In this document: one piece after another, positions 18,172 to 64,000 of the stretch
Layout of the letters: the number at the start of each line of letters is the position of its first letter
Numbering within the stretch: the stretch's first letter is position 1
Assembly: GCA_947303855.1 (NCBI GenBank)
Contig: CAMYZO010000003.1
Span: 1 to 64,000 of the forward strand
DNA length: 64,000 nt
DNA from: an uncultured Prevotellaceae bacterium
GTDB lineage: Bacteria > Bacteroidota > Bacteroidia > Bacteroidales > Bacteroidaceae
Direction of reading: 5' to 3'
Notes under the pieces: model-generated
What the model was told of the DNA's origin: nothing
Databases searched by the model: none
What the model saw: the letters and a program-made list of their open reading frames with translations, nothing else
Made by a program: the position numbers and the translations under genes

Positions 18172-18636
18172 CAGAAACACTTGTATAGGATTTTTCGTGA
18201 AAAAGGGTGACAGGGTGACAAAACGCCGATGTACAGGGCGTTTGCACCCTTTTCGGAGGGTGACAAGGGTGACAGAAGGGTGACAGGGACGACCTCCCCT
18301 AGCCCCTCCTGTAGGAGGGGGATGGCTGCCTCTCGGGAAAGACGTTGCCTATATGGCTACTCCGAAAGGTGCTATAACCTGCAAATTCTCGAGAGAATCT
18401 GCAGGCATAAAGCCACTTCGTACCGCTCCGGAGGCTTCTGACGGTCAAATTCTCTCGAGAATTTAGAAGCGTGGGAGACCCCCTCTATCTCCCCCTTAAG
18501 GGGGAGGACTGATATTACACTCCTGTCACCCTTCTGTCACCCTTGCCACCCTCCGAAAAGGGTGCAAACCCTTTGTAGCAGGCGGTTTTGTCACCCTGTC
18601 ACCCTTTTTTATGAAAAATCCTATACGGCGTTTCTG
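18172..18636. mobile_element. MITE-like element with 115-bp inverted arms and nested palindromes
   Basis: The left arm (18172-18288) and the right arm (18522-18636) are near-perfect reverse complements: each starts CAGAAAC, then GTATAGGATTTTTC, then a set of GGGTGACA repeats and TTTGCACCCTTTTCGGAGGG. The 233-bp core holds four smaller perfect or near-perfect hairpins: CCCCTCC-TGTA-GGAGGGG (18303-18320), CCTGCA...TGCAGG around ATTCTCGAGAGAAT (18378-18405), GCTTCT...AGAAGC around AATTCTCTCGAGAATT (18434-18470), and CTCCCCCTTAAGGGGGAG (18489-18506). There is no credible ORF. It fills nearly all of the 613-bp gap between a + strand operon and the end of the giant - strand gene. Target-site duplications were not clearly seen. 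Confidence 0.75.
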
Positions 18637-40899: not shown

Positions 40900-43800
40900 T
40901 TATTTAACGAACAGCTTCTTTTGGTTTGCCATGTAAACGCCGGGGAGCCTGACAGGGGTTTCCACCGTCTGTCCTGACTCGAGCACGAAGTCGCGGAGCG
41001 TGATGCCGGCCACATTGACGATGCGGATGGTGACAGCATACTTCTTATGCGATATGGCCACGATGTTGCGACCACGGACATAAAACTCGATAGAGCCGTC
41101 GAGCACGCTCTCCGGACCTTGTTCCAGCTCTTCGCCGTTGGCCCCGCCGAAGATGATGCTTTGCGGTACCTGGCGACTTGAACTCGTCACAGAGGCTGTG
41201 AAGTAAGGACGGAAGGCACTCAGCGCGGGTGTCACCTTGTTTGTCGTGTTCTCAGCTGCATTGCTGCTCAGCTTGACGTAGGCATTGCCGGTGCTGTTCA
41301 TGACGTAGCTGCCCGTCTCCAGCTGTTCGTTCATGTAGCTGGGCTTGAAGGTGACGTTGTAGCTCTTGCCGCTTACGGGCTTCACCACGCCTGCCGTCTC
41401 ATCGTCGCTGATGCCAATGGCGATACCCTTATTTGATGCCAGGGTGATAATCTGCTTGCTTAGCTTGGCGATGCTGGCAGCCGTGTTCTTAGGCGTGAAC
41501 GAGCCGCTGAGGTCGAACTCGTAGTAGAGCTTACTGGGCAGACCGAGGATATACGGCGTGGCCTTTGCCAGCAGTGGGTAGGCTGCGTAGTGGCGCGGGT
41601 CTTTGTAGTACTGTCTGTACTGCAGGTAGGTGTCGGTGTTGGCATCCTGCTGGTTGTGTACAGGCTCGTTCTTGTAGTAGTAGTCCCAGAGGAAGTTGTT
41701 GGCGACCGTCTTGTCTTTGCCGTCTGCCTCCGGATAGGTGAAGGAGGCTTTTGCTACGCTGCCCTCATCTGGGACTTTGACAGCCGTGAGCTCACGCAGC
41801 CAGTATTCGTGACCCTTCTTGGTGCCGTTCTGGCTGTTGTCGCTACCCGAGTAGAAATGGGTTATCTCACCCTTCTGGTGTGTGGTCACCAGTTCGGCAG
41901 TGAACGGCACGCTGATGCCTTGCCACCCCTTCGTCTGGTCTACATACTCGCTGTTGGCAGGTGTGCGCTGGTACCACATCAGGTGGTCGGCATCGAAGGT
42001 GTAGCCTATCGGGGCGTTGAAGTCCTGCTTGTCGACGAGCAGGTGGTCGTTCGTGGCCGTCAGGCCGCTCTGCACAAGGTGGCCGTGAACGTCCGACGGA
42101 CTGGCCTCGGCAACGCGGCGGCAGACATCCGTTTCGTCGTAGTAGTCGTTATAGGCTGGCTCATCGAAGTAGCTGGCCAGCACGCCGAGGGTCTTGTCGT
42201 TGGCATCTGCCGAAGGTGCATAGACCAGCAGGTTCTGTGTCTCGTCGCAGTTCATGATGCCGGTCAGGCCGTCATCGTCGAGGAGGGGTGGGTAGAAGGC
42301 GCTCTTGCCAGCGGGTAAACCGCTGGTCACGGTGCCCAGGCCATAGGTCCCATAGGCCTTATAGGCCCCATTAGCTTCATCATAATGCCCCTTAAAGTCG
42401 ATGGCGGTCATCGGCTTTTCGCTCACTGTCTTGGTGCCATCGGCAGACTTGTAAGCCAGGTAGGCGTTCGGGTTGAAGTGTGCAACGCCCATCTCCTTCG
42501 AGCGGTAGTAGGCCGGAGCGCGATAGACGCGGTTGGCGTCGTCATCAGTGGACAGGCGACCGTCGCTGCGCACGATGGCCGACGGCAGACTCTGGTGGGT
42601 CTGTGCAGCCCAGCCGTAGGTGAGCTTCTGTCCGAAGAACAGGTAGTCGTCGGGCCAGATGGGGAAATAATAGGTCTTGTTGTTATCCTTGGTGTCAGTC
42701 CAGTGGCGCTCATCGGCTGATGTCGGAATCTCGCCTGCGGCGAAGATGAAGTCGCCGTCGGCGAAGCGATCCTCCACATATTTAATATGATTATAGCCTG
42801 ACGAGCATTCGGCGATGTTCGAGGCATACTTACCGGTCTGCGGCTCTGCTTCGCCCGGTTTCCAATACTTATAGGTCACATTGGCCCCATTAGTCCCATT
42901 AGCCCCGTCGTTGTAGCGCTTATACAGGTAGAAGTTGTTCAGGTCGTAGGCTACCTCACCGTTGTAGAAGGCGCGGTCGGGCATGGGCTTGGCCAGGCCG
43001 TGGCTGCCTGTGTCGGTGGTGCTGTAGGTCTTGCCCGTCTGGTAATAGCTGTTGACAATTTGCTTGTAACCGCTGTCGGCATTTGGAGTACCGAAGATAG
43101 CCCTTGCACTGCCATCTGGAGTGCCTGTGGTGTTGATCCAGCTGCTCTCCACATAGCCGCTGCCCTTGTTCACCACACCGGCGGTGCTGAACGAGCCGGT
43201 CACGCCGAGGTTATAGACCGAGCCGCAGAGGTTGTTGAACAGCGAGTTGTCCAGACCGCTGATGGTATGGCCGTCGCCGTGCAGCGTACCCTCGAAGCAC
43301 TGCTCATCAGTGCCTATAGGTGTCCAGCTGGATGTGTGGTCGATGTCCGTGCGCAGGAAGAACTCCAGGTTCTTTGCGCCCTTCACGCCTCTGACAAGCT
43401 TAGAGCCGTCAGACATCGTCACCTCTTCGGTGCTGTTGTTCAGCAGGGCATGGCCCTTCAGATCACCCGACTCAGCAACAGTAGTGCGCAGACTCAGGTC
43501 ATACAGATTCTTCAGCAGGTCGAGACCGTTCTCCGAGTCGGCGCTGTAGTCGTTGATGTATATCTTCGAGTCGCGCTTCAGTCGGGTGCGGTCGTAGTCT
43601 ACATGCAGGTGGTTGGCCTTGTCGTCCATCACCTTCTTCAGGTCGTGGTAGTTGGCCACGCTCACCGGCACGTGGTTCGAGTAGGTCTTGCCGAGATAGG
43701 TCTTGGCGTAGTAGGCCAGGTAGAAGCCGTCCTGATACCAGTAGAGCGGATCGGCCGAAGGTGTGTATTCCACACCGTTGGTATGGCTCTCGGCATCGCC

Positions 43801-46800
43801 CGGTGTCTCAAACAGTTCCCAGCCGCCACCGGTGACCTCGTAGGCACCCGGCGTCACTGAAGGTATGCGCATGGTGATGCCCGTACCCGGGAGCACGATG
43901 GTAGGCGGATTGATGTCGTCGACCAGAGGCACGCCACTCTTGAAGTTGATGTGGATGTTCACCACATGGCGCTCACTGACGGGTGTGATGTGGTTGCCTT
44001 CGGTATCGCTCTCCTCATAGTCGTACTTATAGATCACGGTAATGATCTTCTCGGTGGAGAGGTCGTTGATGTCGGCATTGCGGCTCACGTAGAGCGTGGT
44101 TGTCTCCATGGGCGACTCGCCGTGGATGGTGAAGTTCAGCTGCTTGTTGACCAGGCCGACGTAGTCTTCGTTAGAGATAACGATACCGGCAGGAACGTTG
44201 CCTGTTGTATAGGTTGTGCCACTGCTTACACCCTTGATGCTCTTCACCTTACCCTTGTTGGCATCATCCGCAGGGTAGTAGCCGGTGTTGATGGTGTAGC
44301 CCTCGCGGCAGTAGTACAGCGGGAGCGGATTGCCTTGAGCGTCCTTTTTGACCTCGTCAGCAGTAAACGTCAGCGTATCGATGTATTCTTTCTGCTCGTC
44401 TTCTGACAGGCGGTCGTAGGTGTCTTTGTCGATGGTAGAGCCTACAGCGTATGGGCGTTCACCGTGTACGAAGGTCTCCTTGACAATATAGTAGGTGCCG
44501 CCAGTGGCTTCCAGCTGGATAGGTGCATAATGGTGGCGCTCGTTCGGCAGGGCCTCATAGACGGTGCTAACCAGCTCGTCGTCCTTCTGAATCGATGTCT
44601 GACCTGTTTCTTCTTTGCCGCCGCGCTTCACCGTTATTCCTGTTGTCAGCGTCAACGGTGTGTCACCATTATACGTTGCCGTGTAGTTGATGGGCGTGGT
44701 GAGCGAGTACTGCGCTGCATTGGCAACGGCTCCATCATAGGTAGCAGCCTTCGAGTCGTACTGATACTTCTTGCCTGTCGTGCCGCTATACGTGGAATCG
44801 ACGAGCAGGTCGAGGGCATCGTAGTTGAAGGCGAATTTCTTGCGGTCGCTCTCCGACAAAGAGCTGTAAGCCTCCAGGGCGCGGTAGTTCTTCTTTGTCT
44901 CATAGTAGTTACCGCCATAGAGACCTGCCTTGGTACAGATGTAGGCAGGCACAATCTTATTGCTAATCTCTGCAGCAATAGCCTTGTCGGCATCAGTACC
45001 GTCTTTAAACCTATTGTAATAGGCCGTCTTCTGCTCCTCCGTCATGAGGTCGTTCACATAGATATATTCTGTCGGCGCGAGCTGGATGGTGGCGGTGCTG
45101 ACGTAGGCAGGGGCGGTGTGTCCGGTAATCGGTGCAGAAACCGGAGCACCGGGATAGTAGTGCTGACCACTTTCAGTACATTCCGTAGTCACCAGATAAG
45201 CGGAAGTAAAGGCGGCCTGATCATCAGGTGCGGGCTTGTGCGATCCCAGACTCTCATAGGCATTATACGCAGTTGCTGAGATAATCGCATTCTTGGAATA
45301 CTCCTGCTGGCCATAGAGACCGGTGGTAGTAGGATGATAGGTGGGACCGTCCTCATAGCCGCTGCCGCCAGTCTGATTCTTGGCGCGGCTCTCACTCTCC
45401 ACCTGGGTGAACCACTTGCCCCAGAGGTTGGGATTGGTCACGTTGTAGGTGAGCAGGAAGCCCTTGTCGTGGCTCATGTTGTTGCTGGAGCGGAACACTT
45501 CGTTGAAGGCCACCTTCTTCTGCATGCCAATGTGGTAAACGGAATCCGTCACTAAAGCGTTATATTGGCTCCTCAGCAGCACGCTGTCGGCAGGAAACAG
45601 CTTGTTGCCAATCTTACAGCTGTCTATGACGATGTAGGTGTCTTCTACGAACAGCTTTTTCTCGGCCGCCGGCAGCTTGTTCCAGTCCCAGTAGCTGATG
45701 GGGGTGTTGCGCTGGTAGGTCACATCGTTGATGACCAGCTTCCTGTCGCCATAGAGCGGCGTGTTGTTTGTCTCGCTCAGATAGCTGGAGTAGAAGGCAT
45801 AGAGGTTGGGCTGCACATCCATCAGCGTCATGGTGCCGTGCGAGGCGGCACTGATGGTGATGGGCAGTTCTACGGTCTTGCTGAAGGCATTGGGCGAGCC
45901 GGTGTAGGCAGAGATGTACTGGTCGTAGACATATACCGAACCGGCGATATACCAGTAGTGGGCCGGTACGCCGTCAGCTGTCTTATACCTGTTGCTGATG
46001 TTATAGCAGTCGTCGATGATGGTCTGCGTGCTGTGGATGAAGTTGCCCGACGTCTCCCACTGATAGCGCGAGCCGTCGGCGGTGGCATAGCTGTAGTCCC
46101 ATTGGGTGGCAGCACCGGTGTTCAGATCCGTCAGGGTGGTGGTCGTGATGCCCGATGTGCTTGGATGGCCGTGCTGGTTCTTGGCATAGACGAAGCCGCC
46201 GCCGATACCGGGCTGCACGTTGATGAGGTCGAGCTCTACGACACCTGTGATGGGACCCCACACCTTCTCGTTCAGACTGGTGCCGGTGCTCTCCTCTGTC
46301 GTCAGCTCCAGATAGACGCCTGAGGCCAGTGCCAGCTGGTTGTGGCAGGCGCCGTTGTTGCGGGTCTTGTCGTTGATGTGAGCCTGTTTCCAGTTATAAA
46401 AGGTGGCACCGGTTTCGCCATATTTGTAGGTCGATGTGCCAATGGTTATGTCCGACTGGTATTTCTTGGTGTCGGCATTGTTCGTCTTTCTGATATCGCT
46501 GAATTTCACGTCGCTGGTCAGCGCACCGAGGTAGTTCACCACGCTGTAGATGCCGAAGTAGTTGCCGTGTTCAGCATTATCACCCGTATCGCCGGCAACC
46601 GACGCTTTCTTGTTCAGCGACACCTCGCGCACGCGGTTGATGGTGTAGTTGGTGTAGTCGACGGCCTCTGGCACACGGTCCTGGGCTCCCTTCATCACCA
46701 TGCGGCTGCCGAACACACCGCAGAGGTCGGCACGCTGGATGGTGTTCATGATGCGGCCGGCATAAATGGATACCACGCCGTTCTGTACCCAATAGTTGGG

Positions 46801-49800
46801 GTTGGGCTCTTTCTTGCCTGCCACCGTAATCAGGATGCTGTCGCCGCTTTCCGACAGTACTGACTTTCCGTCGGGCTTAGTGAACAGTGCCAGCAGTTCG
46901 TCCATAGGCAGGTTGGCGGTGGTGGTATATTTAGTGCCGGGATAGTCGGTACACTCCTGTTGGCACTTGTACCTCACTTCATAATAAGCCTGTTCGCGCT
47001 CAGGCAGTTCCAGATAGGCATCGTAACTCAGCTCGCGGTTGCCATGATTGGTAATATAATAATAGTCGGTACCGTAGTTGGTGATGTTCAGCTCACGGTA
47101 GCCGTCGACGAAGGTCAGGTTGCCGTCGCCGTAGAGTCCGCCGGTATGACCGGTGCCGATGGTGATGAGGTCGCGGTTGTAGGCATCGTGGATAGAGGCG
47201 GTGGCGTTGCCAAAGACCGTCGTGGTGTTGGCATGGAACGAGCTACTGCCCGCAGCAATGTTTCCACCGGCGAAGACGGCGTTGTGGATGATGATGCCAT
47301 CAGGGTCGAGGTTGTCCCATACGGCTTTCGACTCCATCTTGTCCTTCAGCGAGTCAAGGTAGGCTGTGGTCACGTAGTCGCCTTTCTTATAACTGGTACC
47401 GGCTATATCCACGTAGGCCTGACAGTGGGGCTCAACCAGAACCTTGCAGTCCTCGGTGAAGATGCGGTCGGTGGTGCCTTGCTTGTTGAGGAACTTGCTG
47501 CCATCCCACTGGAAGTAATAGCCCTGGTAGTTATAATTCTCTTTATCGCTTGGAGCAATTCCCTTGTTGTAGCGTTTTCCAGCCTTCTTGCCGATGCGCA
47601 GATTGTTGCCGTCCATATAGGCACTATACACAAAGCCTTCATCGCCACCGCCGAACACGTTGCCGTAGCCGTAGGCCATGCCCTCGGCGGTGCCTATCTC
47701 GCCGCCATAGATGTTCACACAGGTCTGACCGAACACATAGCCTGTGCAGAACAGTTTTTTCGCTTTCAAGTCGTCCACTGTGGCCTGGTCCATGAACTTG
47801 GTACCGTCGCCGCCCCAGCTGTCCTTACCACGACCGCCGCCGAAGACGTTGCGCAGCACCTTGCCGTCGTACATGTTCACCTGCGTAGTACCGGCCCTGA
47901 AGATGGTGGCATCGCCATTCTCCATGCCGCTGCTGAGACCGGTGGCGTGGGCGCCGCGTCCTACAGGGCCTACCTCGCCGCCGCCGAAGAGGCTGCCGCG
48001 CACCTGACCGCCGTACATGTTGATGATGGTATTGTCTACGTAGCTGTTCACCACATAGCCGCCACCGAAGATGTTTCCCGAGAGGTCCAGGTCGCCGGGC
48101 TTCTGGTCGTCAAGCTCCTCCACGTAGGTCCCATTAGCCCCATTAGCCCCATTGGGCTTATACCTATAGCCTATATAGCCGTTGTTGAACGTAATCTTGG
48201 CGGTGCCGAAGACCGAACCGCCCTCACCGGCGCCATAGACGTTGCGGGTGATGGCCGGAGCGCCGCCCGTGAAGGTGTCGGTGCCCGACTTGCCGATGAC
48301 CACGTTGGCCGTGGCCGGGCGGTCGCCGGCATAGGTGTCCCAGATGTCGCCGGCATGGTGCCCCACATTGCCCAGATAACCGCCGCCATAGACGTTGCGA
48401 GCCGTGCCGCCCTGTACATAGGCGTTAGCGCTGGCAACGAAGTCGCCGCCCGAGAAGCTGTCGGCACCGAAGAGGTTGTCCAGGCCTCCGGCACGTCCGC
48501 CGGCATAGACATCCTTCTTCACCTCGCCACCCAGCACGGCCACGTAGGTGTTGCCGTACACGTCGCCGGAGAGGTGGACGGAGGCATTGCCCAGACCGCC
48601 GCCGTAGACGTAGCCGTCCACTACGGCCCCTTCGTTCACAATGACGTTGGTGTTGAATTTCTTCTCGTCCTTACCGTTCAGCTGGGCAGCGGTCTTGTCG
48701 TCGAGCTCGGCACGGTCGCTGAAGTGTTTCAGGTTGGTGGCGGTGTTCGTGGCATATTTGGTAAAGGGGGTTCCTGCTGTCTCTCCATTGGATGCGCCCG
48801 GCATATAGTAGCTGCCCAGCGCCCAGGCGTCTTTCCAGTCTTGATGCCAACGGTCCAGAGCAGCCGCCTTTGTAGCTTCGTTGGTCAGGTCGCCATGATG
48901 TGCCTTCCAGTAAGCATCCTGTGCGCTAATCTGCGGCGACGGCTGGTCTTTATACAGAGCCATGTAGGCCTGCACGCTGGCAGCGTTGAGCACATGGCCC
49001 ATCTCGCCGCCGCCATACACCTCATAGATGCGGGCACCCTTCAGCAGGTTCACCTCGGTGTGCTCTGACCAGGTGTCAATACCGCGTCCGGCACCGTAGA
49101 CGGTACCCGTATAGCCCTTCTCCTTGTTCTGCCATACCGGCGAGGAGATGTTCACCTGGGTGAAGAGCGACCGGCGCTCGTTGTTGTTACCGCCAAAGAT
49201 GGCCCCAAACACCTGGGCCTTCTCGCTGGTGTTCTTGTAGTTCACCTGAGTCTCATAGACATCGCAGGGCGGCAGGATATACTTGCCGTAGGCACCACCG
49301 TAGATGCTGTCTGCCTGGATGCTCGACTCCGCCGGCACGTTCACCACCGTGCGCCGCGTGATTCCCTCCTGGTAACTGCCGCCGTAGGCGTTGTGGATGC
49401 GTCCGTGGAGCAGGTCGATAATGGCTGAGGCTTCATCCAGGTTGATGGCCTTGCCCGTCTCGTCAACGGTCTTGCCGCTCTCGCTGTCGAAGCTGTAACG
49501 CATACCCAGACCATTGTAGCTACCGCCGCCGAAGACCTCCAGACCGCTGAACTTCGTCATGCCGTCGGGAATGTCTATCAGCACATAGCTGCGGTCCTGG
49601 GCACCGTCGTAGGCTCGGTTGCCGGGATAGCCGGTGCCGCCGCCAAACACGCCCTTCACCATGTTCTGCGCATGGTCCGACGGACGGAAGTTCACGAAGG
49701 CGCTGTGCTGCTCCGGCATTTTTGCCCCACTGCCATAGAGCGCCGTGTTGCTATAGTCATAGTAGCCGTAGCCGCCACCGAAGATGGTGTCTACACGCCC

Positions 49801-52800
49801 CTTCAGGTATTCCACATACGACGACGACTTCAGCACGTCGGGTATCTCGCCGGCTTTGTAGCCGTGCACCTGTGTCTTGTCGGTGTCATAGTTGCGCAGG
49901 CGGGCGGTGAAGTCATAGCCGTCTTCGTAGCCACCGTGGATGGTGCCGCCAAAGTCGTTGCCGCCATAGACAATGTCCATCACCCACGGGAAGCCGTCCT
50001 TGTAGCCGCCGCTGCCGTTGGGCTGACGACCGATATACACCTCGCTGTGGCCCAGGATGTCGGCATCGCTGGCACCGCCGAAGGCATCGTAGATGCGGCC
50101 GTTGCCTAAGTTCACAAGGGTATTGCCGCAGACGTCACCCTCGTTGCCGCCACCATACAGGTATTCTGCCTCGGCCAGGTTCTCCTCAGTGCCGCTACTC
50201 GAATAGATGGTGGCAGCTCCGTTCAGGTTCACGGTGGTGCTGTAGGCGGGGTTAAACTCATACTTCTTGGTAATGGCACCGCCCTCGCCCACCACGTCGA
50301 CGGCCTTGCCTATCACACCCTGTTCGCCGCCGCCAAAGGCCTGGAACACATAGCCGTTGTTATGGTTTATCGTGGTGCTGCCCCATATCTCTGTATTCTT
50401 ACCGTAGCCGCCGCCAAACACCGTCAGGGCAACAGCCATCAGGTCGGTGCGCTGTTCGTCGAGACTCACGCCAGAGGCCTTGCGATCGTAGATGCCCACG
50501 CCATTGCCGAACACCTCGTCGCGCTTCAGTACGTCTTCGTTGATGTTCACTACCACGTTGCCGTTCACATGACCGCTCTCATAGCAGCCGCCATAGACGT
50601 TGCCGCCCAGCAGACGGGTGTCCTTGTCTACCGCGCTGCTATCGATAGTAACGAAGTCTTCCTCATCGTTATCCCACTTGTTGGTGTTCCAGATCAGCCG
50701 TGTGTTGTCGTCATTCCAGCGCAGGGGCACGATGGTCAGGTTGTCCAGGTTGATTTCCAGACGGTCCTTGATTGCCCCGCCAGCATCGGTGTAGCTGTCG
50801 CGCTCGTCCTTTGTTCCGAGGATACCGCCTTTGTAGGCAGCATTGTAAGTGCCTGCAGCCACGTCGGCATTGTTGCAGCCGCCCACAAACTTATTGTAGA
50901 TGTTCAGACCTTCACTAATGGTGAATGTCTCCTTGCCCGGTATGGCCATACTACCCACGTTACCGCCACAGAAGAACGAGCCAACGTAGCTTGTGTAGGG
51001 CTCGTAGGTGGCACGGTCGCCGTTGTCCACATTGTCAAACACGATGCTGGGCTGCAGCGTCATCGTCACACCTTCCATATAGTTGGCAAACACGTCGGCA
51101 TCCGTCAGCGCCAAGGAACTGAACTCACGGTCGGCATAACGTTCCAGATAGTCGCTATAGACCATACCCTCACCGTTGTTGCCCAGGTAGATGTTGTCGG
51201 CCACCACGTGTGAGCCAATCTTCAGCTCTACCATCGGGTTCTTTTTCTTCGTGGCCAGCGAGGCACAGTTACCGCCCACGAAGATGGAGCCGTGAACAAT
51301 GGTGGGGTGCTTGTCGTCAGTACCGGCCAGGCGGATAGACACCTGCTCGGCATTGGGACGGAAGGCGTTGAGTGCATCGTATGATGTCTGTCCGTCTTTA
51401 ATCTTGTCACCATAGTAGAAGTCGCCATAGGTCTCATCGTCCTCCATCTCCTGGTTATCCGTGTAGGGGTAAGCGCCGTTGCCGCCACCGTAGACGTTGC
51501 CATACACATCTTTATGGATACCCACGGCATTGCCGCCATACACGATGCCCGTCACGTCGTTGCCGCCATAGACGTTGTTCACATGTCCGCCGTTCACGAG
51601 TGTTCGGGCCGACAGTTCGTTGGGGAAGTAATAGCCAGGCAGGTTCACACATGGCTTGTATTCGCCATTCACCGTTGGCTTCACATCGGCCATACGACAG
51701 CCGCCGTACAGGTTGTCCACAATCAGGGTGGAATAGTCCTTGATCTCCATCAGCAGCCCGTCGGGACTGGTCATGTTACCCTTGTTGCCGCCGCTATACA
51801 GGTTGCGTATCTTGCCCGCCAGCAGGTTCCACGTGGGGCGTATGCTCATCTCAGCCAGGTTGTTGCCGCCAAAGAAGCGGCCCACCTGGTAAGCACCGCT
51901 GCTGGGCATCGAGAAGGTGGTGTTGATGCCCATCTCCGCGAAGCGCTCGTCACTGAGCAGGTCCGTTCCATCTTCCAGCACATGGTTCACCACCGCGCTG
52001 GGGTTGTCTACATGGATAATGGCCTGCTTCTTCACCGTGGCGTTGTTGCCACCGCCGTAGGCATAGACGATGGAGCCGCCCGTCACTTCCAGATAGGTCT
52101 TGTCGAGCTCTGGGAAGTGGAAGCCTACGTCCGATGCGTCGGTCACCACCTCTGCCACTGGACTTTCGTGGTTCTTGTCGCTTCGGTTGTATATCTTGTG
52201 GGTCAGCTGCCCTGCCTTCGGTCCGTTTTCCTGCTCATAGTCGTAGTCGCCGTTGCTGCCGGCAAAGAGCTGGCCTATATACACCTTCTTGGCATCGGCA
52301 GCAGGCTTCACGTCCGCAGTGCTCTTGCCGTAGGCGGGGTTGTCGGGGTCAGATGCTGCAGCGGCTATTTCCTCAGCTGTATAGTGTGTGTCGGTGGCCT
52401 TGGTGCTCACGCGCACATAGCTGTTGAAGGTGTTGTCGACGGCATTTTTCTTCGGGTCTGTTTCGTCAGCGGTAGTGCGCTTGATGGCTGTCAGCTCTGA
52501 AGGAACGTCCTCGCCCACCGCCGCTGCCGTACCTATCTGACCGGCGATGTCGTTGCCGCCAAACACCTGGTTCACAACGATATAGTCGGGAGTAGTGGCG
52601 TTGTCTGCAGTAAAGTTCTTGCCATCAATGTGTACGAAGGTGTTGCCGCCCACATCCGCCATACGGGCGCCGCCGAACACCTTGCCTTTCTTGTTCTCAA
52701 GAGGGCGGGTGGCCTCAGGGTCAAGCACGGCACCGATGTCGCCGGCCAGCACCGTCACTTTCGTGCTGCCCTTCACCTGCCCTTGGTTGCCGCCGCCATA

Positions 52801-52941
52801 GACGTTGCCCCCAATCTTAATCTGAGCCTGAGCCGGCAAGCCCCAAAGCCCCATAAGCCCTATAAGGCCCATAAGGCCCATTAGCCCCATAGGCCCCATA
52901 AGCCCCATCGCTCTTCTTACTATGGTCTTTATCTTGCTCAA
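40900..52941 (-). CDS. Giant VYGGG-repeat surface protein (4,013 residues) with T9SS-like tail
   Basis: One open 12-kb frame. The start is a TTG at 52941, supported by AGGAG five bases upstream and by the basic leader KIKTIVRR it adds. The signal-peptide core is a run of MGL triplets made by a 9-bp DNA repeat and ends in PAQA before QIK. Residues about 40-1,950 are VYGGG solenoid repeats like those of the next gene. The middle (about 1,950-3,200) is mixed and Tyr/Thr-rich, with Ig-like stretches. A GLUG-like segment, EGTLHGDGHTISGLDNSLF, lies near 3,220. The last 70 residues resemble a type IX secretion sorting domain, ending LPGVYMANQKKLFVK. I infer surface display. It lies 9 bp after the minor fimbrillin gene and 20 bp before the larger giant, so it is probably part of one long operon. 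Confidence 0.85.
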   Translation of the reverse strand: MSKIKTIVRRAMGLMGPMGLMGLMGLIGLMGLWGLPAQAQIKIGGNVYGGGNQGQVKGSTKVTVLAGDIGAVLDPEATRPLENKKGKVFGGARMADVGGNTFVHIDGKNFTADNATTPDYIVVNQVFGGNDIAGQIGTAAAVGEDVPSELTAIKRTTADETDPKKNAVDNTFNSYVRVSTKATDTHYTAEEIAAAASDPDNPAYGKSTADVKPAADAKKVYIGQLFAGSNGDYDYEQENGPKAGQLTHKIYNRSDKNHESPVAEVVTDASDVGFHFPELDKTYLEVTGGSIVYAYGGGNNATVKKQAIIHVDNPSAVVNHVLEDGTDLLSDERFAEMGINTTFSMPSSGAYQVGRFFGGNNLAEMSIRPTWNLLAGKIRNLYSGGNKGNMTSPDGLLMEIKDYSTLIVDNLYGGCRMADVKPTVNGEYKPCVNLPGYYFPNELSARTLVNGGHVNNVYGGNDVTGIVYGGNAVGIHKDVYGNVYGGGNGAYPYTDNQEMEDDETYGDFYYGDKIKDGQTSYDALNAFRPNAEQVSIRLAGTDDKHPTIVHGSIFVGGNCASLATKKKNPMVELKIGSHVVADNIYLGNNGEGMVYSDYLERYADREFSSLALTDADVFANYMEGVTMTLQPSIVFDNVDNGDRATYEPYTSYVGSFFCGGNVGSMAIPGKETFTISEGLNIYNKFVGGCNNADVAAGTYNAAYKGGILGTKDERDSYTDAGGAIKDRLEINLDNLTIVPLRWNDDNTRLIWNTNKWDNDEEDFVTIDSSAVDKDTRLLGGNVYGGCYESGHVNGNVVVNINEDVLKRDEVFGNGVGIYDRKASGVSLDEQRTDLMAVALTVFGGGYGKNTEIWGSTTINHNNGYVFQAFGGGEQGVIGKAVDVVGEGGAITKKYEFNPAYSTTVNLNGAATIYSSSGTEENLAEAEYLYGGGNEGDVCGNTLVNLGNGRIYDAFGGASDADILGHSEVYIGRQPNGSGGYKDGFPWVMDIVYGGNDFGGTIHGGYEDGYDFTARLRNYDTDKTQVHGYKAGEIPDVLKSSSYVEYLKGRVDTIFGGGYGYYDYSNTALYGSGAKMPEQHSAFVNFRPSDHAQNMVKGVFGGGTGYPGNRAYDGAQDRSYVLIDIPDGMTKFSGLEVFGGGSYNGLGMRYSFDSESGKTVDETGKAINLDEASAIIDLLHGRIHNAYGGSYQEGITRRTVVNVPAESSIQADSIYGGAYGKYILPPCDVYETQVNYKNTSEKAQVFGAIFGGNNNERRSLFTQVNISSPVWQNKEKGYTGTVYGAGRGIDTWSEHTEVNLLKGARIYEVYGGGEMGHVLNAASVQAYMALYKDQPSPQISAQDAYWKAHHGDLTNEATKAAALDRWHQDWKDAWALGSYYMPGASNGETAGTPFTKYATNTATNLKHFSDRAELDDKTAAQLNGKDEKKFNTNVIVNEGAVVDGYVYGGGLGNASVHLSGDVYGNTYVAVLGGEVKKDVYAGGRAGGLDNLFGADSFSGGDFVASANAYVQGGTARNVYGGGYLGNVGHHAGDIWDTYAGDRPATANVVIGKSGTDTFTGGAPAITRNVYGAGEGGSVFGTAKITFNNGYIGYRYKPNGANGANGTYVEELDDQKPGDLDLSGNIFGGGYVVNSYVDNTIINMYGGQVRGSLFGGGEVGPVGRGAHATGLSSGMENGDATIFRAGTTQVNMYDGKVLRNVFGGGRGKDSWGGDGTKFMDQATVDDLKAKKLFCTGYVFGQTCVNIYGGEIGTAEGMAYGYGNVFGGGDEGFVYSAYMDGNNLRIGKKAGKRYNKGIAPSDKENYNYQGYYFQWDGSKFLNKQGTTDRIFTEDCKVLVEPHCQAYVDIAGTSYKKGDYVTTAYLDSLKDKMESKAVWDNLDPDGIIIHNAVFAGGNIAAGSSSFHANTTTVFGNATASIHDAYNRDLITIGTGHTGGLYGDGNLTFVDGYRELNITNYGTDYYYITNHGNRELSYDAYLELPEREQAYYEVRYKCQQECTDYPGTKYTTTANLPMDELLALFTKPDGKSVLSESGDSILITVAGKKEPNPNYWVQNGVVSIYAGRIMNTIQRADLCGVFGSRMVMKGAQDRVPEAVDYTNYTINRVREVSLNKKASVAGDTGDNAEHGNYFGIYSVVNYLGALTSDVKFSDIRKTNNADTKKYQSDITIGTSTYKYGETGATFYNWKQAHINDKTRNNGACHNQLALASGVYLELTTEESTGTSLNEKVWGPITGVVELDLINVQPGIGGGFVYAKNQHGHPSTSGITTTTLTDLNTGAATQWDYSYATADGSRYQWETSGNFIHSTQTIIDDCYNISNRYKTADGVPAHYWYIAGSVYVYDQYISAYTGSPNAFSKTVELPITISAASHGTMTLMDVQPNLYAFYSSYLSETNNTPLYGDRKLVINDVTYQRNTPISYWDWNKLPAAEKKLFVEDTYIVIDSCKIGNKLFPADSVLLRSQYNALVTDSVYHIGMQKKVAFNEVFRSSNNMSHDKGFLLTYNVTNPNLWGKWFTQVESESRAKNQTGGSGYEDGPTYHPTTTGLYGQQEYSKNAIISATAYNAYESLGSHKPAPDDQAAFTSAYLVTTECTESGQHYYPGAPVSAPITGHTAPAYVSTATIQLAPTEYIYVNDLMTEEQKTAYYNRFKDGTDADKAIAAEISNKIVPAYICTKAGLYGGNYYETKKNYRALEAYSSLSESDRKKFAFNYDALDLLVDSTYSGTTGKKYQYDSKAATYDGAVANAAQYSLTTPINYTATYNGDTPLTLTTGITVKRGGKEETGQTSIQKDDELVSTVYEALPNERHHYAPIQLEATGGTYYIVKETFVHGERPYAVGSTIDKDTYDRLSEDEQKEYIDTLTFTADEVKKDAQGNPLPLYYCREGYTINTGYYPADDANKGKVKSIKGVSSGTTYTTGNVPAGIVISNEDYVGLVNKQLNFTIHGESPMETTTLYVSRNADINDLSTEKIITVIYKYDYEESDTEGNHITPVSERHVVNIHINFKSGVPLVDDINPPTIVLPGTGITMRIPSVTPGAYEVTGGGWELFETPGDAESHTNGVEYTPSADPLYWYQDGFYLAYYAKTYLGKTYSNHVPVSVANYHDLKKVMDDKANHLHVDYDRTRLKRDSKIYINDYSADSENGLDLLKNLYDLSLRTTVAESGDLKGHALLNNSTEEVTMSDGSKLVRGVKGAKNLEFFLRTDIDHTSSWTPIGTDEQCFEGTLHGDGHTISGLDNSLFNNLCGSVYNLGVTGSFSTAGVVNKGSGYVESSWINTTGTPDGSARAIFGTPNADSGYKQIVNSYYQTGKTYSTTDTGSHGLAKPMPDRAFYNGEVAYDLNNFYLYKRYNDGANGTNGANVTYKYWKPGEAEPQTGKYASNIAECSSGYNHIKYVEDRFADGDFIFAAGEIPTSADERHWTDTKDNNKTYYFPIWPDDYLFFGQKLTYGWAAQTHQSLPSAIVRSDGRLSTDDDANRVYRAPAYYRSKEMGVAHFNPNAYLAYKSADGTKTVSEKPMTAIDFKGHYDEANGAYKAYGTYGLGTVTSGLPAGKSAFYPPLLDDDGLTGIMNCDETQNLLVYAPSADANDKTLGVLASYFDEPAYNDYYDETDVCRRVAEASPSDVHGHLVQSGLTATNDHLLVDKQDFNAPIGYTFDADHLMWYQRTPANSEYVDQTKGWQGISVPFTAELVTTHQKGEITHFYSGSDNSQNGTKKGHEYWLRELTAVKVPDEGSVAKASFTYPEADGKDKTVANNFLWDYYYKNEPVHNQQDANTDTYLQYRQYYKDPRHYAAYPLLAKATPYILGLPSKLYYEFDLSGSFTPKNTAASIAKLSKQIITLASNKGIAIGISDDETAGVVKPVSGKSYNVTFKPSYMNEQLETGSYVMNSTGNAYVKLSSNAAENTTNKVTPALSAFRPYFTASVTSSSRQVPQSIIFGGANGEELEQGPESVLDGSIEFYVRGRNIVAISHKKYAVTIRIVNVAGITLRDFVLESGQTVETPVRLPGVYMANQKKLFVK
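42339..42385 (-). repeat. 9-bp repeat tract (EANGAYKAYGTYG)
   Basis: CCCATAGGCC-type 9-bp units read on the coding strand as Gly-x-Tyr/Asn triplets inside the 4,013-residue gene. Confidence 0.7.
42871..42908 (-). repeat. 9-bp repeat tract (DGANGTNGANVT)
   Basis: Three to four units of the CCCATTAGC family encode GANGTNGAN in the 4,013-residue gene. Confidence 0.8.
48127..48160 (-). repeat. 9-bp repeat tract (PNGANGANGT)
   Basis: Three to four CCCATTAGC units encode NGANGANGT inside the solenoid of the 4,013-residue protein. Confidence 0.8.
52840..52910 (-). repeat. 9-bp repeat tract forming a signal-peptide core
   Basis: About eight units (CCCATAAGC, CCCATTAGC and variants on the + strand) are read in the frame that gives Met-Gly-Leu. 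They make up the whole hydrophobic core of the 4,013-residue protein's signal peptide. Confidence 0.9.
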
Positions 52942-58732: not shown

Positions 58733-59878
58733 TCACATTTCAAATTCGTGGGTGCCGCCGTCCTCGAAGTCCTTCACCACGGCATCGAAGCCGGAGCCGC
58801 CGGAGCGGGAGGGTATCGGGATGGTGTCCATGTCGAGCTCCACGGTGATGACGCCGCCCTTGTAGTGCCGGCGCACCTGGTCGGTGACGTTGAAGACAAA
58901 GGTGGAGTCCATGCCGTTGTTGAACTGCATGGTGACATCTATGTAGTGGCTGTGCTCGTCGCGCACGTCGCTGGCACGGCTCAGGGCGTTGGCCTCGTTG
59001 CCGCAGATGCCGAAGGTCATGAGCCGTCCGCCTATGATGTCCACCAGCTCGCCGTCCTTGTCGCAGTTCTTCTTCAGGTTGGCGTTGTAATACACGGTGA
59101 TGGCGTCGTTGCCGGCGCACCCCGTGTTCAGGTTCGTGCTGCGGGCCATGCCCGACAGGTCAGACGTGCCGTCGATGCTGGTGATGCGCCCGTTGTTATG
59201 ATGCAGTATCACCTGCACCAGGTAGATATAGGTGATGGGCTTGAGCACCATCCTCAGTGTGCGCACCCACACATTACGCTCCGCGTCGAACTCGAAGCCG
59301 GTGAGGTCGCGGTTAATCTCTATGGCCTGCTCGTAGGCCGCGAACAGCGGCTCGGGGGCGTAGAACGAGCGCGTATAGCGCGGTGCCTGGTAGCGGCTGA
59401 CGTGCATCGTCTGGTTGGTATAGGCTATCACCGAGTCGAGCGAGGTAGTCTCGTCAATAATCAGACTCTGCACGCCGTCGGCCGTCTTGATGTCGTTCCA
59501 CAGCAGCAGGTCCCAGTAGCCCCAGTCGTAGCGGTCCTGGAAGTGGGTACCTTCTATATAGGAGGCGATGACGCCGGTATGGGGGGCGTATGGTATTTCG
59601 CCAGTATAGTAGCGGCGCACCTGGAACGCCGTTGGCGTGGTGTAGCCTATCTCGCCAAACATCTGTATGTCGTGGGCGTCCCACCCGTAGTACCATTCTG
59701 CCCTCCAGTCGTACTCCACGCCGAAGTCCAGCTGATAGTCCCAGTACACCTCCAGGTCCAGGTCAATCAGCGGCAGACTCATCTCCGCCTCCTGGGCATC
59801 GTAGAGGTGCAGCTCGGGCTCGCGCATACAGCTGCCCACCAGCACCATCACAGGAAAAAACCATAGCAGCTTCCTCAT
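58733..59878 (-). CDS. DUF5119 domain lipoprotein of the pilus locus
   Basis: A 381-residue lipoprotein (MRKLLWFFPVMVLVGSC, Cys 17). The mature part matches the DUF5119 type found in Bacteroidales fimbrial clusters: REPELHLYDAQEAEMSLPLIDLDLEVYWDYQLD, VRRYYTGEIPYAPHTGVIASYIEGTHF, RYTRSFYAPEPLFAAYEQ and TYIYLVQVILHHNNGRI. Its role is not established; an outer-membrane-anchored assembly factor or accessory subunit is likely from context. The start overlaps the DUF3575 gene stop by 4 bp (ATGA). Confidence 0.85.
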   Translation of the reverse strand: MRKLLWFFPVMVLVGSCMREPELHLYDAQEAEMSLPLIDLDLEVYWDYQLDFGVEYDWRAEWYYGWDAHDIQMFGEIGYTTPTAFQVRRYYTGEIPYAPHTGVIASYIEGTHFQDRYDWGYWDLLLWNDIKTADGVQSLIIDETTSLDSVIAYTNQTMHVSRYQAPRYTRSFYAPEPLFAAYEQAIEINRDLTGFEFDAERNVWVRTLRMVLKPITYIYLVQVILHHNNGRITSIDGTSDLSGMARSTNLNTGCAGNDAITVYYNANLKKNCDKDGELVDIIGGRLMTFGICGNEANALSRASDVRDEHSHYIDVTMQFNNGMDSTFVFNVTDQVRRHYKGGVITVELDMDTIPIPSRSGGSGFDAVVKDFEDGGTHEFEM

Positions 59879-61341
59879 GGCGCGGCCCTCCTTTCCCCAG
59901 AAGCCCCATTCCCCGCCCTCCGGTAGAGCAGGTCATAGCTCAGCGTGATGCCTACGCGTGTGGGCCCCAGCCAGTTAAAGCGGTACTGCAGCTCCTTGAA
60001 GTCCTTGGCGCGGCCCGTCCACTTATAGTAGTACAGATCGTCATGGTAGCTGGGGTTGACGGGGTTCTCATACTGGAAGGGGTCGTGCTTGGCAGTGAAC
60101 CATCCCACTTGCAGGCTGAAGTCCAGTCGCCAGTGGCCATTGCGGCTGACGGGCACCACATACCCGGCCCCCACGCCAGCGCCAAACCCATGTCCGCGCC
60201 AGCCCTTGTTTTCGTTAAAGCCAATCTCAAAGAGCCCCCCATGGCCATAGCCCATCAGGTAAAGTCCGCTGAAGGCGGGCTTCCCAGAAGCCCCATTGGC
60301 CCCAAGAACCCCATGAGCCCCAAAATAATACCGCCCCTCCACCTGATAATTCCTAATCTCAAAGAACTTATGCCGCCCATAGTCCACCCACCAGGGGAAG
60401 TCCACCGAAGCGCCAAAGGTAAAGTGCCCGCCCTTAGGGTAGTACTCCACCGCCACGTTGGGTATGGGGCACCAGCGGTTATAGCCCGGCATGTAGACCC
60501 CGTAGAACAGCAGGTTCGTCTTCAGCGACAGCAGTTCTCGTCGCGGTAGGCGCGATGGTGTCGCCGGCAGCTGCGGCAAAACGGTGAGGTATAGTGAGTC
60601 GGGCAGCGGCAGCGAGTCGGGCAGCCCATGCGACGGCCTTTCTATGGCAATAGGGTCGGCGCCAGGCATTCGCCTGAAATAGAGCAGCATGCGGGCAGCA
60701 CGCAACTGCGGGAAATAGTCGCGCAGCAACCGCTGCCAGAGCTGTCCGTCCTCCGCACGCATCAGCCTGTCTTTCAGTTCGCCGTAGCCGTCGCTGCGGT
60801 GGTAATTGTCATAGAGCTCCTGTACAATCGGGTAGGCCGGGTCGCCGGCCCGCTTCATCATGATACAGAGCGAGCGGTAGTCTTCCACCTCCACATGCCC
60901 CACAAACTGTCTCTCGCTGACAGGTGTCTCCAGGTACTCGTTGAAGAAGTCGTAGAGAGCCTTGGCGCGGTTCACGCCCAGCTTGCGATTGTTTTCAAAA
61001 GGACCTTCGGGCGAGGCAGCGCCGCGCAGCAGCACGCGGTAGAGCTGCAGGCGGTCTCTGTTGAGCTGCGGTATCAGCTCGTCGCGCCAGCGGCGGAGTA
61101 GGGCGCTGTTCTCGGGCAGGTCGTACCTGTTGACCGTAAAGATCACCTTCGCCGCATCGTCGAGAAACTCCTCGTCGCTGACGGCGATAGAATCATCAGT
61201 TTCAATGAACCGGATATAAGGGAATTGTGCATAATAGGCAGAGTCGCGCATAACAGCAACATCGGCCATTGCCTTGCCTGGCCATGCGAGAATCAGGAAA
61301 AGCAGCGACAAGAGTGTATGTGTTATCTGACGTGTGCCCAT
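59875..61341 (-). CDS. DUF3575 outer-membrane protein with OmpA-like part
   Basis: A 488-residue exported protein, first gene of the pilus cluster. The signal peptide ends near WPGKAMA before DVAV. Residues about 45-150 resemble an OmpA-like periplasmic domain (LLRGAASPEGPFENNRKLGVNRAKALYDFF). From about residue 265 the DUF3575 beta-barrel begins: LLSLKTNLLFYGVYMPGYNRWCPIPNVAVEYYP, GRYYFGAHG and, near the end, VGITLSYDLLYRR. Proteins of this type recur next to DUF5119 and fimbrillin genes and may anchor or help assemble the pilus at the outer membrane; this is inferred. Two short 9-bp repeat tracts (GAHGVLGANGASG and GNGASG) lie in the coding region. Confidence 0.85.
   Translation of the reverse strand: MGTRQITHTLLSLLFLILAWPGKAMADVAVMRDSAYYAQFPYIRFIETDDSIAVSDEEFLDDAAKVIFTVNRYDLPENSALLRRWRDELIPQLNRDRLQLYRVLLRGAASPEGPFENNRKLGVNRAKALYDFFNEYLETPVSERQFVGHVEVEDYRSLCIMMKRAGDPAYPIVQELYDNYHRSDGYGELKDRLMRAEDGQLWQRLLRDYFPQLRAARMLLYFRRMPGADPIAIERPSHGLPDSLPLPDSLYLTVLPQLPATPSRLPRRELLSLKTNLLFYGVYMPGYNRWCPIPNVAVEYYPKGGHFTFGASVDFPWWVDYGRHKFFEIRNYQVEGRYYFGAHGVLGANGASGKPAFSGLYLMGYGHGGLFEIGFNENKGWRGHGFGAGVGAGYVVPVSRNGHWRLDFSLQVGWFTAKHDPFQYENPVNPSYHDDLYYYKWTGRAKDFKELQYRFNWLGPTRVGITLSYDLLYRRAGNGASGERRAAP
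59893..59916 (-). repeat. Short 9-bp repeat tract near the DUF3575 C-terminus
   Basis: Two to three units encode GNGASG just before the stop codon. Confidence 0.6.
60286..60330 (-). repeat. 9-bp repeat tract (GAHGVLGANGASG)
   Basis: About four units lie between two beta-strands of the DUF3575 barrel, where a surface or periplasmic loop is expected. Confidence 0.75.
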
Positions 61342-61507: not shown

Positions 61508-61808
61508 CAATTATCCGCTTATCCTACACCCGATACTGATTATCAGTGAGTTAGTCGGATATTATCCGCTTGCTATCCGCTTTTATCCTACACCAATTTG
61601 TCTTACCCACTCTGCCCCTTTCGGTTTTTCGTCCGCCGCTTTCGGACTTTTGTCCGAGCCTTTCGGACGGTGGCTTTCCGGCTGTTCTTTGGTTGTAGAC
61701 GACATGTATGTTCGGTGTTTGGTGTAGGATAAACAGCGGATAAGATGCGGATAATTTCCTGCTAACTGCCTGATAATCAGTATCGGGTGTAGGATAAGCG
61801 GATAATTG
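61508..61808. mobile_element. MITE-like inverted-repeat element, 301 bp
   Basis: The outer 39 bases of each arm (CAATTATCCGCTTATCCTAC and on) are exact reverse complements; the inner part of each arm is imperfect. Arms are 61508-61596 and 61719-61808. Each contains several TATCCGC and ATCCTACACC pieces. The 122-bp core carries repeated TTTCGG words. The 91-residue track ORF on the - strand spans it but has no coding signs. It lies in the 777-bp gap between the pilus operon and metG. Confidence 0.75.
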
Positions 61809-61866
61809 CGAATGAATGCGCAGCCCAAATAATGATAATTATGATAATTTCTGTCCATTCAATTTA

Positions 61867-61964
61867 GCAGCGGACTACAGGACTTCAGGACTTTTTCTTG
61901 CTACGGCTTTATTGGCAATACCATGAGAGGATAAAAAAAGTCTTGAAGTCCTGTTGTCCGCTGC
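61867..61964. repeat. 98-bp inverted repeat (31-bp arms)
   Basis: GCAGCGGACTACAGGACTTC pairs with GAAGTCCTGTTGTCCGCTGC and the pairing extends into AGGACTTTTT/AAAAAGTCTT, around a loop of about 36 bases. It is separate in sequence from the element at 61508-61808. It has no ORF. Confidence 0.75.
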
Positions 61965-62064
61965 AAAATGAAATGAGGGAACATCATATTGAACAACTAT
62001 TACTAAATTATGCAAGTTTTTAATGTTTTTCGTTTGATTCCTGCCAAATGTCGCGGAAAAAGTG

Positions 62065-62118: not shown

Positions 62119-64000
62119 ATGGAACAGAAACAGTATAAGCGGACGACCGTAACGTCGGCCCTGCCCTATGCTAACGGCGGGGTGCATATCGGTCATCTGG
62201 CTGGCGTCTACGTGCCGGCCGATATCTATGTGCGCTATCTCAGGCTGAAGAAGCGCGAGGTGTTGTTCATTGGCGGCTCCGACGAGCACGGCGTGCCCAT
62301 CACGGTGCGTGCCCGCAAGGAGGGTATCACGCCGCAGGATGTGGTGGACCGCTACCACAAGATGATCAAGGACTCGTTTGAGGAGTTCGGCATCTCGTTC
62401 GACATCTACAGTCGTACCACCAGCGAGACCCACCATAAGTTTGCCGCCGAGTGGTTCCGCAAGCTCTACGACGAGGGCAAGCTGGTAGAGGAGACCACCG
62501 AGCAGCTGTACGACGAGGAGGCCAAGCAATTCCTGGCCGACCGCTACGTGATGGGCGAGTGCCCCCACTGCCACAACGAGAACGCCTATGGCGACCAGTG
62601 CGAGAAATGCGGTCGCGACCTGAGTCCCACGGAGCTCATCAACCCCCGCTCCACCATCAGCGGCTCGACACCCGTGCTGAAGAAGACCAAGAACTGGTAT
62701 CTGCCCCTGAACGAGTATCAGGACTGGCTGAAGCGGTGGATTCTGGAGGAGCACAAGGAGTGGCGCCCGAACGTCTACGGCCAGTGCAAGTCGTGGCTCG
62801 ACATGGATCTGCAGCCCCGTGCCATGACGCGCGACCTGGACTGGGGTATCCCCGTCCCCGTGGACGATGCCGAGGGCAAGGTGCTCTACGTATGGTTCGA
62901 CGCCCCCATCGGCTATGTCAGCAACACCGTTGAGCTGTGTGCCAGGGAGCCGGAAAAGTGGGGCAACTGGGAGAAATGGTGGCAGGACGAGGACACCCGC
63001 CTCGTTCACTTCATCGGCAAGGACAACATCGTGTTCCACTGCATCATCTTCCCCACGATGATGAAGGCACACGGCGGCTATATCATGCCCGACAACGTGC
63101 CGGCCAACGAGTTCCTGAACTTAGAGAACGACAAGATCTCGACGTCGCGCAACTGGGCCGTGTGGCTCCACGAGTATCTGGTAGACATGCCCGGCAAGCA
63201 GGACGTGCTGCGCTACGTGCTGACGGCCAATGCCCCTGAGACCAAAGACAATAACTTCACCTGGAAGGATTTTCAGGACCGCAACAACAACGAGCTGGTG
63301 GCCGTCTATGGCAACTTCGTGAACCGTGCCCTCCAGCTGACGAAGAAGTACTGGGGTGGGGTAGTGCCCGCCTGCGGAGAGTTGCTTGACGTTGACCGCC
63401 AGGCCCTGGCAGAGTTCAAGGACGTCAAGGAGAAGGTGGAGCGCCTGCTGGAGCAGTTCAAGTTCCGCGACGCCCAGTTCGAGGCCATGAACCTGGCCCG
63501 TATCGGCAACAAGTATATCACCGACTGCGAACCGTGGAAGGAATGGAAGGCCGCCCCCGACCCCTCCGAAGGAGGGGAGTGGCTGCACGGTCCGAAGCGT
63601 GTGGAAACCATTCTGAATATCTGCTTGCAGCTGACGGCCAACCTGGCCATCGCCTTCGAGCCGTTCCTGCCGTTCTCGTCGAAGAAGCTGCGCGACATGC
63701 TTAACATCGAGAGCTTTGAGTGGGAACAGCTGGGCCAGACCGACCTGCTGAAGCCCGGCCACCAGCTGGGCGAGCCCGCCCTGCTCTTCGAGAAGATTGA
63801 GGATGAGGTGATACAGAAGCAGCTTGACAAGCTGGAGAAGACAAAGAAAGATAATGAGGCCGCAGCCTATAAGGCTGCCCCCATAAAGGGTACCTGCTCG
63901 TTCGAGGACTTCGAGAAGCTTGACATCCGTGTGGGCCTTATCAAGGACTGCCAGAAGGTGAAGAAGTCGAAGAAGCTGCTGCAGTTTACCATCGACGACG
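62119..64000 (+). CDS. metG: Methionyl-tRNA synthetase (3' end outside window)
   Basis: The frame from the ATG at 62119 is open to the window end (627 codons); it is absent from the ORF track because it has no stop here. It charges tRNA-Met. Motifs: HIGH-type [14 protein letters not shown] (about 16-29), the zinc knuckle [18 protein letters not shown] (about 149-166), and the KMSKS-equivalent [13 protein letters not shown]. The anticodon-binding domain follows. After a Lys/Glu-rich linker, the C-terminal tRNA-binding (EMAP/Csaa) domain begins with [17 protein letters not shown], as in the long MetG form. A small insertion, [13 protein letters not shown], coincides with a palindrome. Confidence 0.97.
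63561..63577 (+). repeat. CCCCTCC/GGAGGGG palindrome inside metG
   Basis: CCCCTCC-GAA-GGAGGGG is a perfect 7-bp stem in the coding region, giving DPSEGGE. A near-identical palindrome lies in the core of the element at 18172-18636. Confidence 0.8.

Follow-up and report, generated by a model that had tools for sequence, protein, structure and literature searches.

In the RAYT/REPIN system, the gene of a REP-associated tyrosine transposase is flanked by its own repeat, short non-coding copies of which lie in large numbers as inverted pairs in intergenic regions, and repeat and protein co-diverge (PMC3116915). MITEs, among them BrickBuilt of Porphyromonas gingivalis (PMC4596501), are also short, non-coding, multi-copy and intergenic; they have terminal inverted repeats and derive from a larger element by internal deletion, with tandem repeats in the core. 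A dispersed intergenic repeat has likewise been described in Prevotella, the 188-bp PINSR of P. intermedia and P. nigrescens (PMC4755523). On the protein side, the archaeo-eukaryotic primases include the PF08800 family, and PF05272 is predicted to be a helicase of mobile elements (PMC5862659; inverted repeats are not mentioned in the text of that paper). In Bacteroidales, VirE/BT4734 genes are very common, occur in multiple copies and have lacked an explanation, and we found no published description of dispersed helicase-gene elements of the kind reported here in the open-access literature.

The element analyzed here occupies positions 61508-61808 of a 64,000-nt stretch of DNA (the window), which is contig C3 of a rumen-type Prevotella MAG (G000; 82% complete, 153 contigs). 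The best overall explanation, to which we assign a probability of roughly 0.7, is that it is a non-autonomous, REPIN-like miniature of a single-gene element.

Results

Anatomy of the element

The original prediction had described an inverted-repeat element at this position with arms of about 90 bp and perfect 39-bp tips, and alignment recovered both features. The ungapped inverted repeat 61508-61584/61732-61808 is 88% complementary. Allowing a 1-nt gap, the arms extend over 61508-61596 (left, plus strand, ~89 nt) and 61719-61808 (right, minus strand, ~90 nt) and are ~90% identical as inverted repeats, with the perfect tips at 61508-61546 and 61770-61808. Folded as single-stranded DNA, 61508-61808 has a predicted energy of -94.1 kcal/mol compared to a mean of -28.3 for shuffled sequences (z = -17.4). 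An Rfam search of the same interval gave nothing relevant.

The repeated words named in the prediction, TTATCCGC and TTATCCTACACC in the arms and three copies of TTTCGG, were also found where it had placed them. Within an arm the order is TTATCCGC, TTATCCTACACC and the CTGATTATCAG palindrome, followed by TTATCCGC, CTATCCGC and TTATCCTACACC. On the left (plus strand), the two outer iterons lie at 61511-61530 and are conserved nearly letter for letter in 18/18 aligned arms of this family (family A); the palindrome lies at 61536-61546, a TGATWATCA-type motif that is also present in many other VapE-element families, and the three inner iterons span 61562-61594. On the right (minus strand), GGTGTAGGATAA and two copies of GCGGATAA form the inner iterons (61721-61754), while the palindrome, here CTGATAATCAG, and the outer iterons occupy 61770-61805. 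The core between the arms (61609-61670) consists of GTCCG....CGGAC palindromes at 21-nt spacing, including GTCCGCCGCTTTCGGAC at 61631-61647 and GTCCGAGCCTTTCGGAC at 61652-61668.

Dispersed copies and a full-length element

A search for other copies, one of the checks proposed along with the prediction, revealed that the window element is one of ~10 dispersed family-A copies in G000. The matches comprise seven further short copies (255-338 bp), a single arm on contig C34 and, on contig C59, a pair of arms separated by 2.4 kb. Counted by pattern, there are 19 family-A arms and none for the reversed control pattern, numbers that are lower bounds because some contigs begin or end in or next to arms. 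Nearly all of the copies are intergenic. In the pair on C59 (19604-22028), the same arms surround one ORF of 697 aa, the stop codon of which falls within the right arm, and the encoded protein has a BT4734-like N domain (PF08800), a VapE-like domain (PF05272) and DUF5906 by Pfam. The leader between the left arm and this ORF contains palindromes like those in the cores of the short copies, and the core motif of the window element is matched both there and in other short copies.

The second inverted repeat of the window, at 18183-18626, belongs to another family (family B) with GGGTGACA iterons, TTCTCGAGAA-type core palindromes and many copies. Its full-length VapE copy is at C33:5665-8145 in G000 and encodes a protein with DUF3874 beside PF08800, PF05272 and DUF5906. 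The statement that the two window elements are of different sequence and the same design thus holds: each is a short member of its own iteron family, and both families have a ~2.4-kb VapE-encoding copy elsewhere in G000. We detected no further ORF between the arms of the C59 and C33 copies, and no recombinase or transposase inside the full-length copies read.

In another genome, G121, a short copy retains the last ~33 VapE codons beside an arm. This remnant is direct evidence that the G121 copy is an internal-deletion derivative, with the conservation of leader and arms supporting the same origin for the other short copies. Judged from the sequences, the window element is therefore very probably what its anatomy suggests, a miniature copy of a single-gene element that arose by internal deletion.

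In a comparison sample of one genome per species, family-A arms were found in 5/398 genomes of the genus. The family-A VapE protein of armed genomes is 100% (G000), 77% (G368) and 68% (G121) identical, and the best VapE in other sampled genomes without family-A arms is ~50-63% identical. G139, a 70% complete MAG, has family-A arms and no family-A VapE was found in it; G224 has a single arm and no VapE match. The family is thus sporadic between species, and the number and sites of short copies differ between genomes. In three of the G368 copies (L195, L207 and L220) the cores hold 21-nt tandem arrays of the GACAAAAATCTCAAAGCCCC type, and a similar array is found in the leader of the G368 VapE gene.

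Conservation of the arms within and between copies

The family-A arms of G000 have nearly invariant words separated by spacers that are almost random-like. Arms from the same copy resemble each other no more than arms from different copies do (0.825 within and 0.836 between copies, p = 0.92-0.94), and stem pairing as a conserved feature was therefore rejected for this genome; the word content, rather than the pairing, is kept. Since the copies are not near-identical (arms ~83%), no recent jump is visible in G000.

A different picture was seen for a complete single-contig genome, G024, where the arms of a 3.2-kb element with DUF6078 and VapE genes match 38 times, corresponding to one full copy and ~18 short copies of about 800-1100 bp. 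The outer 100 nt of the arms are matched within a copy (0.907 vs 0.869, p = 2e-5), though the split into outer and inner columns was chosen after viewing the alignment and the whole-arm test gives p = 0.048. For the inner part, within-copy matching is absent (p about 1). The outer matching suggests that at some point one arm served as the template for the other, as happens in inverted-terminal-repeat replicons, with gene conversion as the alternative. A pooled arm-matching test of G368 and G139 was discounted because it is confounded by genome of origin. Four large near-repeats of the G024 VapE loci (L142 and L146-L148) were rejected as markers of the ends, as their homology runs beyond the arms. 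Several of the G024 copies (L271, L276, L277, L280, L283 and L284) share, beyond their arms, semi-conserved flanks, GGTTCTTAGTCAATTTA..CCTCCATAAATGGGCTAAAG or ACAACTTATTTAATAACAAAT, which could be a target motif, an outer end domain or another repeat.

These observations bear on the possibility that the copies are domesticated, immobile repeats with a regulatory or chromosome-organizing role, kept because a host-beneficial protein, VapE or another, binds the iterons. Such a role would fit iteron words that stay intact in every G000 copy despite near-random spacers and divergence of the copies, and one full gene with many short copies per genome is also the RAYT/REPIN pattern (PMC3116915). We nevertheless regard domestication as unlikely, given the sporadic occurrence of the family-A arm pattern, short copies that vary in number and site between genomes, and the matched outer arms of G024, which point to element-wise copying.

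VapE elements across Bacteroidales

VapE homologues are present in 83/120 sampled genomes of the genus. We collected 64 GTDB VapE loci with both flanks, mostly from ruminant Prevotella MAGs, and searched them for bracketing arms (score of at least 20 in an inverted local alignment). Arms were detected in 42/64 of the Prevotella loci vs 0/960 dinucleotide shuffles, leaving 22/64 with no detectable arms. In most cases the left arm precedes the ORF by 200-500 nt, and the right arm begins between about -30 and +45 nt relative to the stop codon. The iteron words are lineage-specific (CTATGCTA, GTGCTACT, CCTGCACT, GTGCCCC and others), and divergence of the arms tracks divergence of the protein (rho 0.45, Mantel p = 0.001). 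Outside Prevotella, a VapE locus of Bacteroides finegoldii, whose full-length copy encodes the protein WP_237923704, has the same layout with 157-nt arms and CTGACAATA words, additional arm copies lie between genes in the records of this species, and arms bracket DUF6078 and VapE genes in Parabacteroides distasonis; the other 3/5 non-Prevotella loci tested have no arms.

Two genes recur beside these elements. In 20/64 VapE loci, L115 and L118-L121 among them, a HU-HIG gene (PF18291, product ending ...RRGQEFIYTEV) directly adjoins the element, mostly upstream and in the same direction, and facing the element in L121. This gene is a possible hot spot or partner. A gene for DUF6078, or an ORF resembling it, is enclosed by the arms alongside VapE in G024, G045 and P. 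distasonis (L143, L154 and L387), whereas in the G000 C59 copy and in G121 (L027 and L108) it is found just outside the right arm.

Insertion sites

No target-site duplication is visible in the copies of G000, G368, G139 and G024, and the ends of the element are not fixed to the base because of the palindromic AATT and because the searches yielded no empty site. A search with joined flanks of 200 genomes of the genus and 60 relatives of G024 recovered the genes and no exact empty site, all relatives being too distant for the exact junction to be aligned. The C47 copy offers the closest approach to an empty site: it lies in the final codons of an ABC ATPase gene, which in relatives is uninterrupted there, and its junction is ambiguous. 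In another species (L184, G151:C29), the same ABC ATPase gene has a different iteron-like inverted repeat, with a AAATTCTCTCGAGAATTT palindrome, at its 3´ end.

Short, non-coding, intergenic, multi-copy repeats with inverted ends would also be expected of conventional MITEs mobilized in trans by a transposase that escaped detection, for which the VapE gene would be a passenger. It is difficult to reconcile a passenger with arms that recur around VapE in 42 loci and, family by family, follow their own VapE lineage (the Mantel test above), or with C59 and C33 copies that have no other ORF between the arms, and the lack of visible target duplications is a further point against this explanation, which we consider improbable.

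The element and the pilus cluster

The window element lies 167 bp before the start codon (61341, minus strand) of the first gene, DUF3575 (59875-61341, minus strand), of a DUF3575/DUF5119 operon. On the other side, the divergent metG begins at 62120 (plus strand), ~310 bp from the element. By sequence reading, an apparent Bacteroidetes-type -7 box (TATACCTTTGC) is present between the element and the DUF3575 ATG, and the operon therefore probably has a promoter of its own. An invertible segment acting as a phase switch for the pilus operon, to which the position of inverted repeats ahead of an operon for a surface structure might point, and for which the matched arm centers within G024 copies would suit site-specific inversion, is accordingly very improbable: other copies are found next to unrelated genes or between convergent ones, the apparent promoter box falls between element and ATG, and we noticed no recombinase gene among the nearby ORFs of the window.

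Only two inverted repeats of at least 30 nt with an exact seed of at least 12 nt were found in the window, those at 61508-61808 and 18183-18626, which had been proposed to bracket a 43-kb pilus cluster. The bracketing is not supported. The two elements are of different families without shared arm sequence and therefore cannot be both ends of one element, and other copies flank unrelated genes (the ABC ATPase gene, a RecQ-like gene and other intergenic sites). With ~26 elements of families A and B in 3.44 Mb, a total in which the family-B count is an approximate estimate, 0.49 are expected per 64 kb and the chance of two or more is ~9%; two in the window are thus unremarkable. The window element does not mark an end of the pilus cluster, and a composite transposon with these elements as its ends, suggested by one element on either side, is extremely improbable given the two unrelated arm sequences, the ~9% chance expectation and the other copies that have no such partner.

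Adjoining the element, at 61856-61975, is an unrelated ~120-bp inverted repeat with 41-nt arms (GCAGCGGAC..AGGACTTC) and no 12-nt seed. Contigs C106 and C94 carry copies 90-97% identical to it, and the C47 family-A element contains half a copy. It resembles a miniature repeat that has spread recently; Rfam gave two sub-threshold miRNA-model matches for it. Between the two window elements lie two giant minus-strand ORFs (18692-40879, 7395 aa; 40900-52941, 4013 aa), for the searched pieces of which Pfam gave chitobiase C-terminal, Fn3-associated and weak ricin-B matches only.

The VapE protein

The G368 homologue, 77% identical to the C59 protein, was modeled from 24 aligned homologues (mean pLDDT 80, pTM 0.55). 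The best PDB matches of the model are, in this order, SaPI PriRep1 with dsDNA (7pds; TM 0.53-0.58 normalized by target), the C-terminal region of the NrS-1 primase (6k9c/6k9e) and the SaPI5 PriRep (7ola), and NrS-1 primase was also the match obtained by sequence only. AEP motif I (hhhDhD/E) is degenerate in 39/39 rows of two alignments; in the aligned elements it reads LLSI, LLNI or LLDIP, while the motif III aspartate is retained. Primase activity is doubtful since motif I is without its acidic pair, and the model points to an origin-binding helicase. No exact arm match and no relative of this VapE clade were found in viral_contigs, and phage and plasmid records contained distant VapE relatives only (best identity 32-33%, none reaching 60%).

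Discussion

We favor the reading of the window element as a non-autonomous, REPIN-like miniature of a single-gene element. Weighing against it are the failure to find a recombinase or transposase in the full-length copies read, a target-site duplication or an exact empty site, the divergent and unmatched arms of G000, the arms of G139 and G224 for which no family-A VapE was recovered, and the VapE loci in which no arms were detected. SaPI PriRep proteins, to which the VapE protein appears related in fold, are replication initiators at their own iteron origins. By analogy, the VapE protein may act as a replication initiator that binds the iterons and loads at both ends of the element. The full-length copy would then supply the protein that replicates or remodels the element and, in trans, its short copies, much as RAYTs are thought to act on REPINs, and at some step both ends might be copied from one template, by foldback or panhandle replication or by conversion, leaving the arms matched within a copy. 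We offer this mechanism tentatively and would give it somewhat less than an even chance. A broader proposal, which is more speculative again, is that these elements represent a class of mobile element without a transposase or integrase of its own, in which a BT4734-like/VapE initiator helicase acts on long, inverted, lineage-specific iteron ends and replication passes through an intermediate whose one end templates the other (ITR-like homogenization), and which gives rise to gene-less swarms across Bacteroidales.

The layouts suggest that many VirE/BT4734 genes are the sole gene of an iteron-ended element with a private iteron word, and such elements are accompanied by their own short copies in the genomes examined. 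Iteron-ended elements explain dispersed intergenic repeats in Prevotella genomes; these repeats break MAG contigs, and they should not be taken for cluster boundaries. If the protein moves or replicates the elements, this would be dispersal by a replication initiator without its own recombinase, a REPIN-like system with a different enzyme, for which B. finegoldii and P. distasonis are culturable gut test cases.

Comparison with known systems places the elements at different distances from each. PINSR is similar as a dispersed intergenic Prevotella repeat but is from another host group, and its authors report no terminal inverted repeats, nor is an associated gene reported (PMC4755523). The encoded protein shares its N-terminal PF08800 domain with the BT4734-like AEP primases (PMC5862659), although catalytic motif I is degenerate in the elements here. 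With SaPI/PICI modules (PriRep helicase and iteron origin) and the P4/NrS-1 primase-helicases there is a common predicted helicase fold and VapE domain, as well as iteron arrays next to an initiator gene, a putative one in our elements. Unlike SaPI/PICI, the elements have no integrase, capsid-hijack or packaging genes, consisting of a single ORF or VapE with DUF6078, and their iterons form inverted arrays at both outer ends and gene-less copies arise. The MITE features listed at the outset, BrickBuilt included, are all present, but the larger element encodes no transposase, only a BT4734-like/VapE protein, no target-site duplication is seen and the iteron word varies by lineage. RAYT/REPIN is similar in having a gene flanked by its own repeat, a complement of short intergenic inverted pairs and co-divergence of repeat and protein. 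The differences are that the gene encodes a BT4734-like/VapE helicase and not an HUH (Y1) transposase, that the arms are iteron arrays of 60-190 nt whereas REPs are ~16-20 nt, and that the full-length copies carry arms on both sides.
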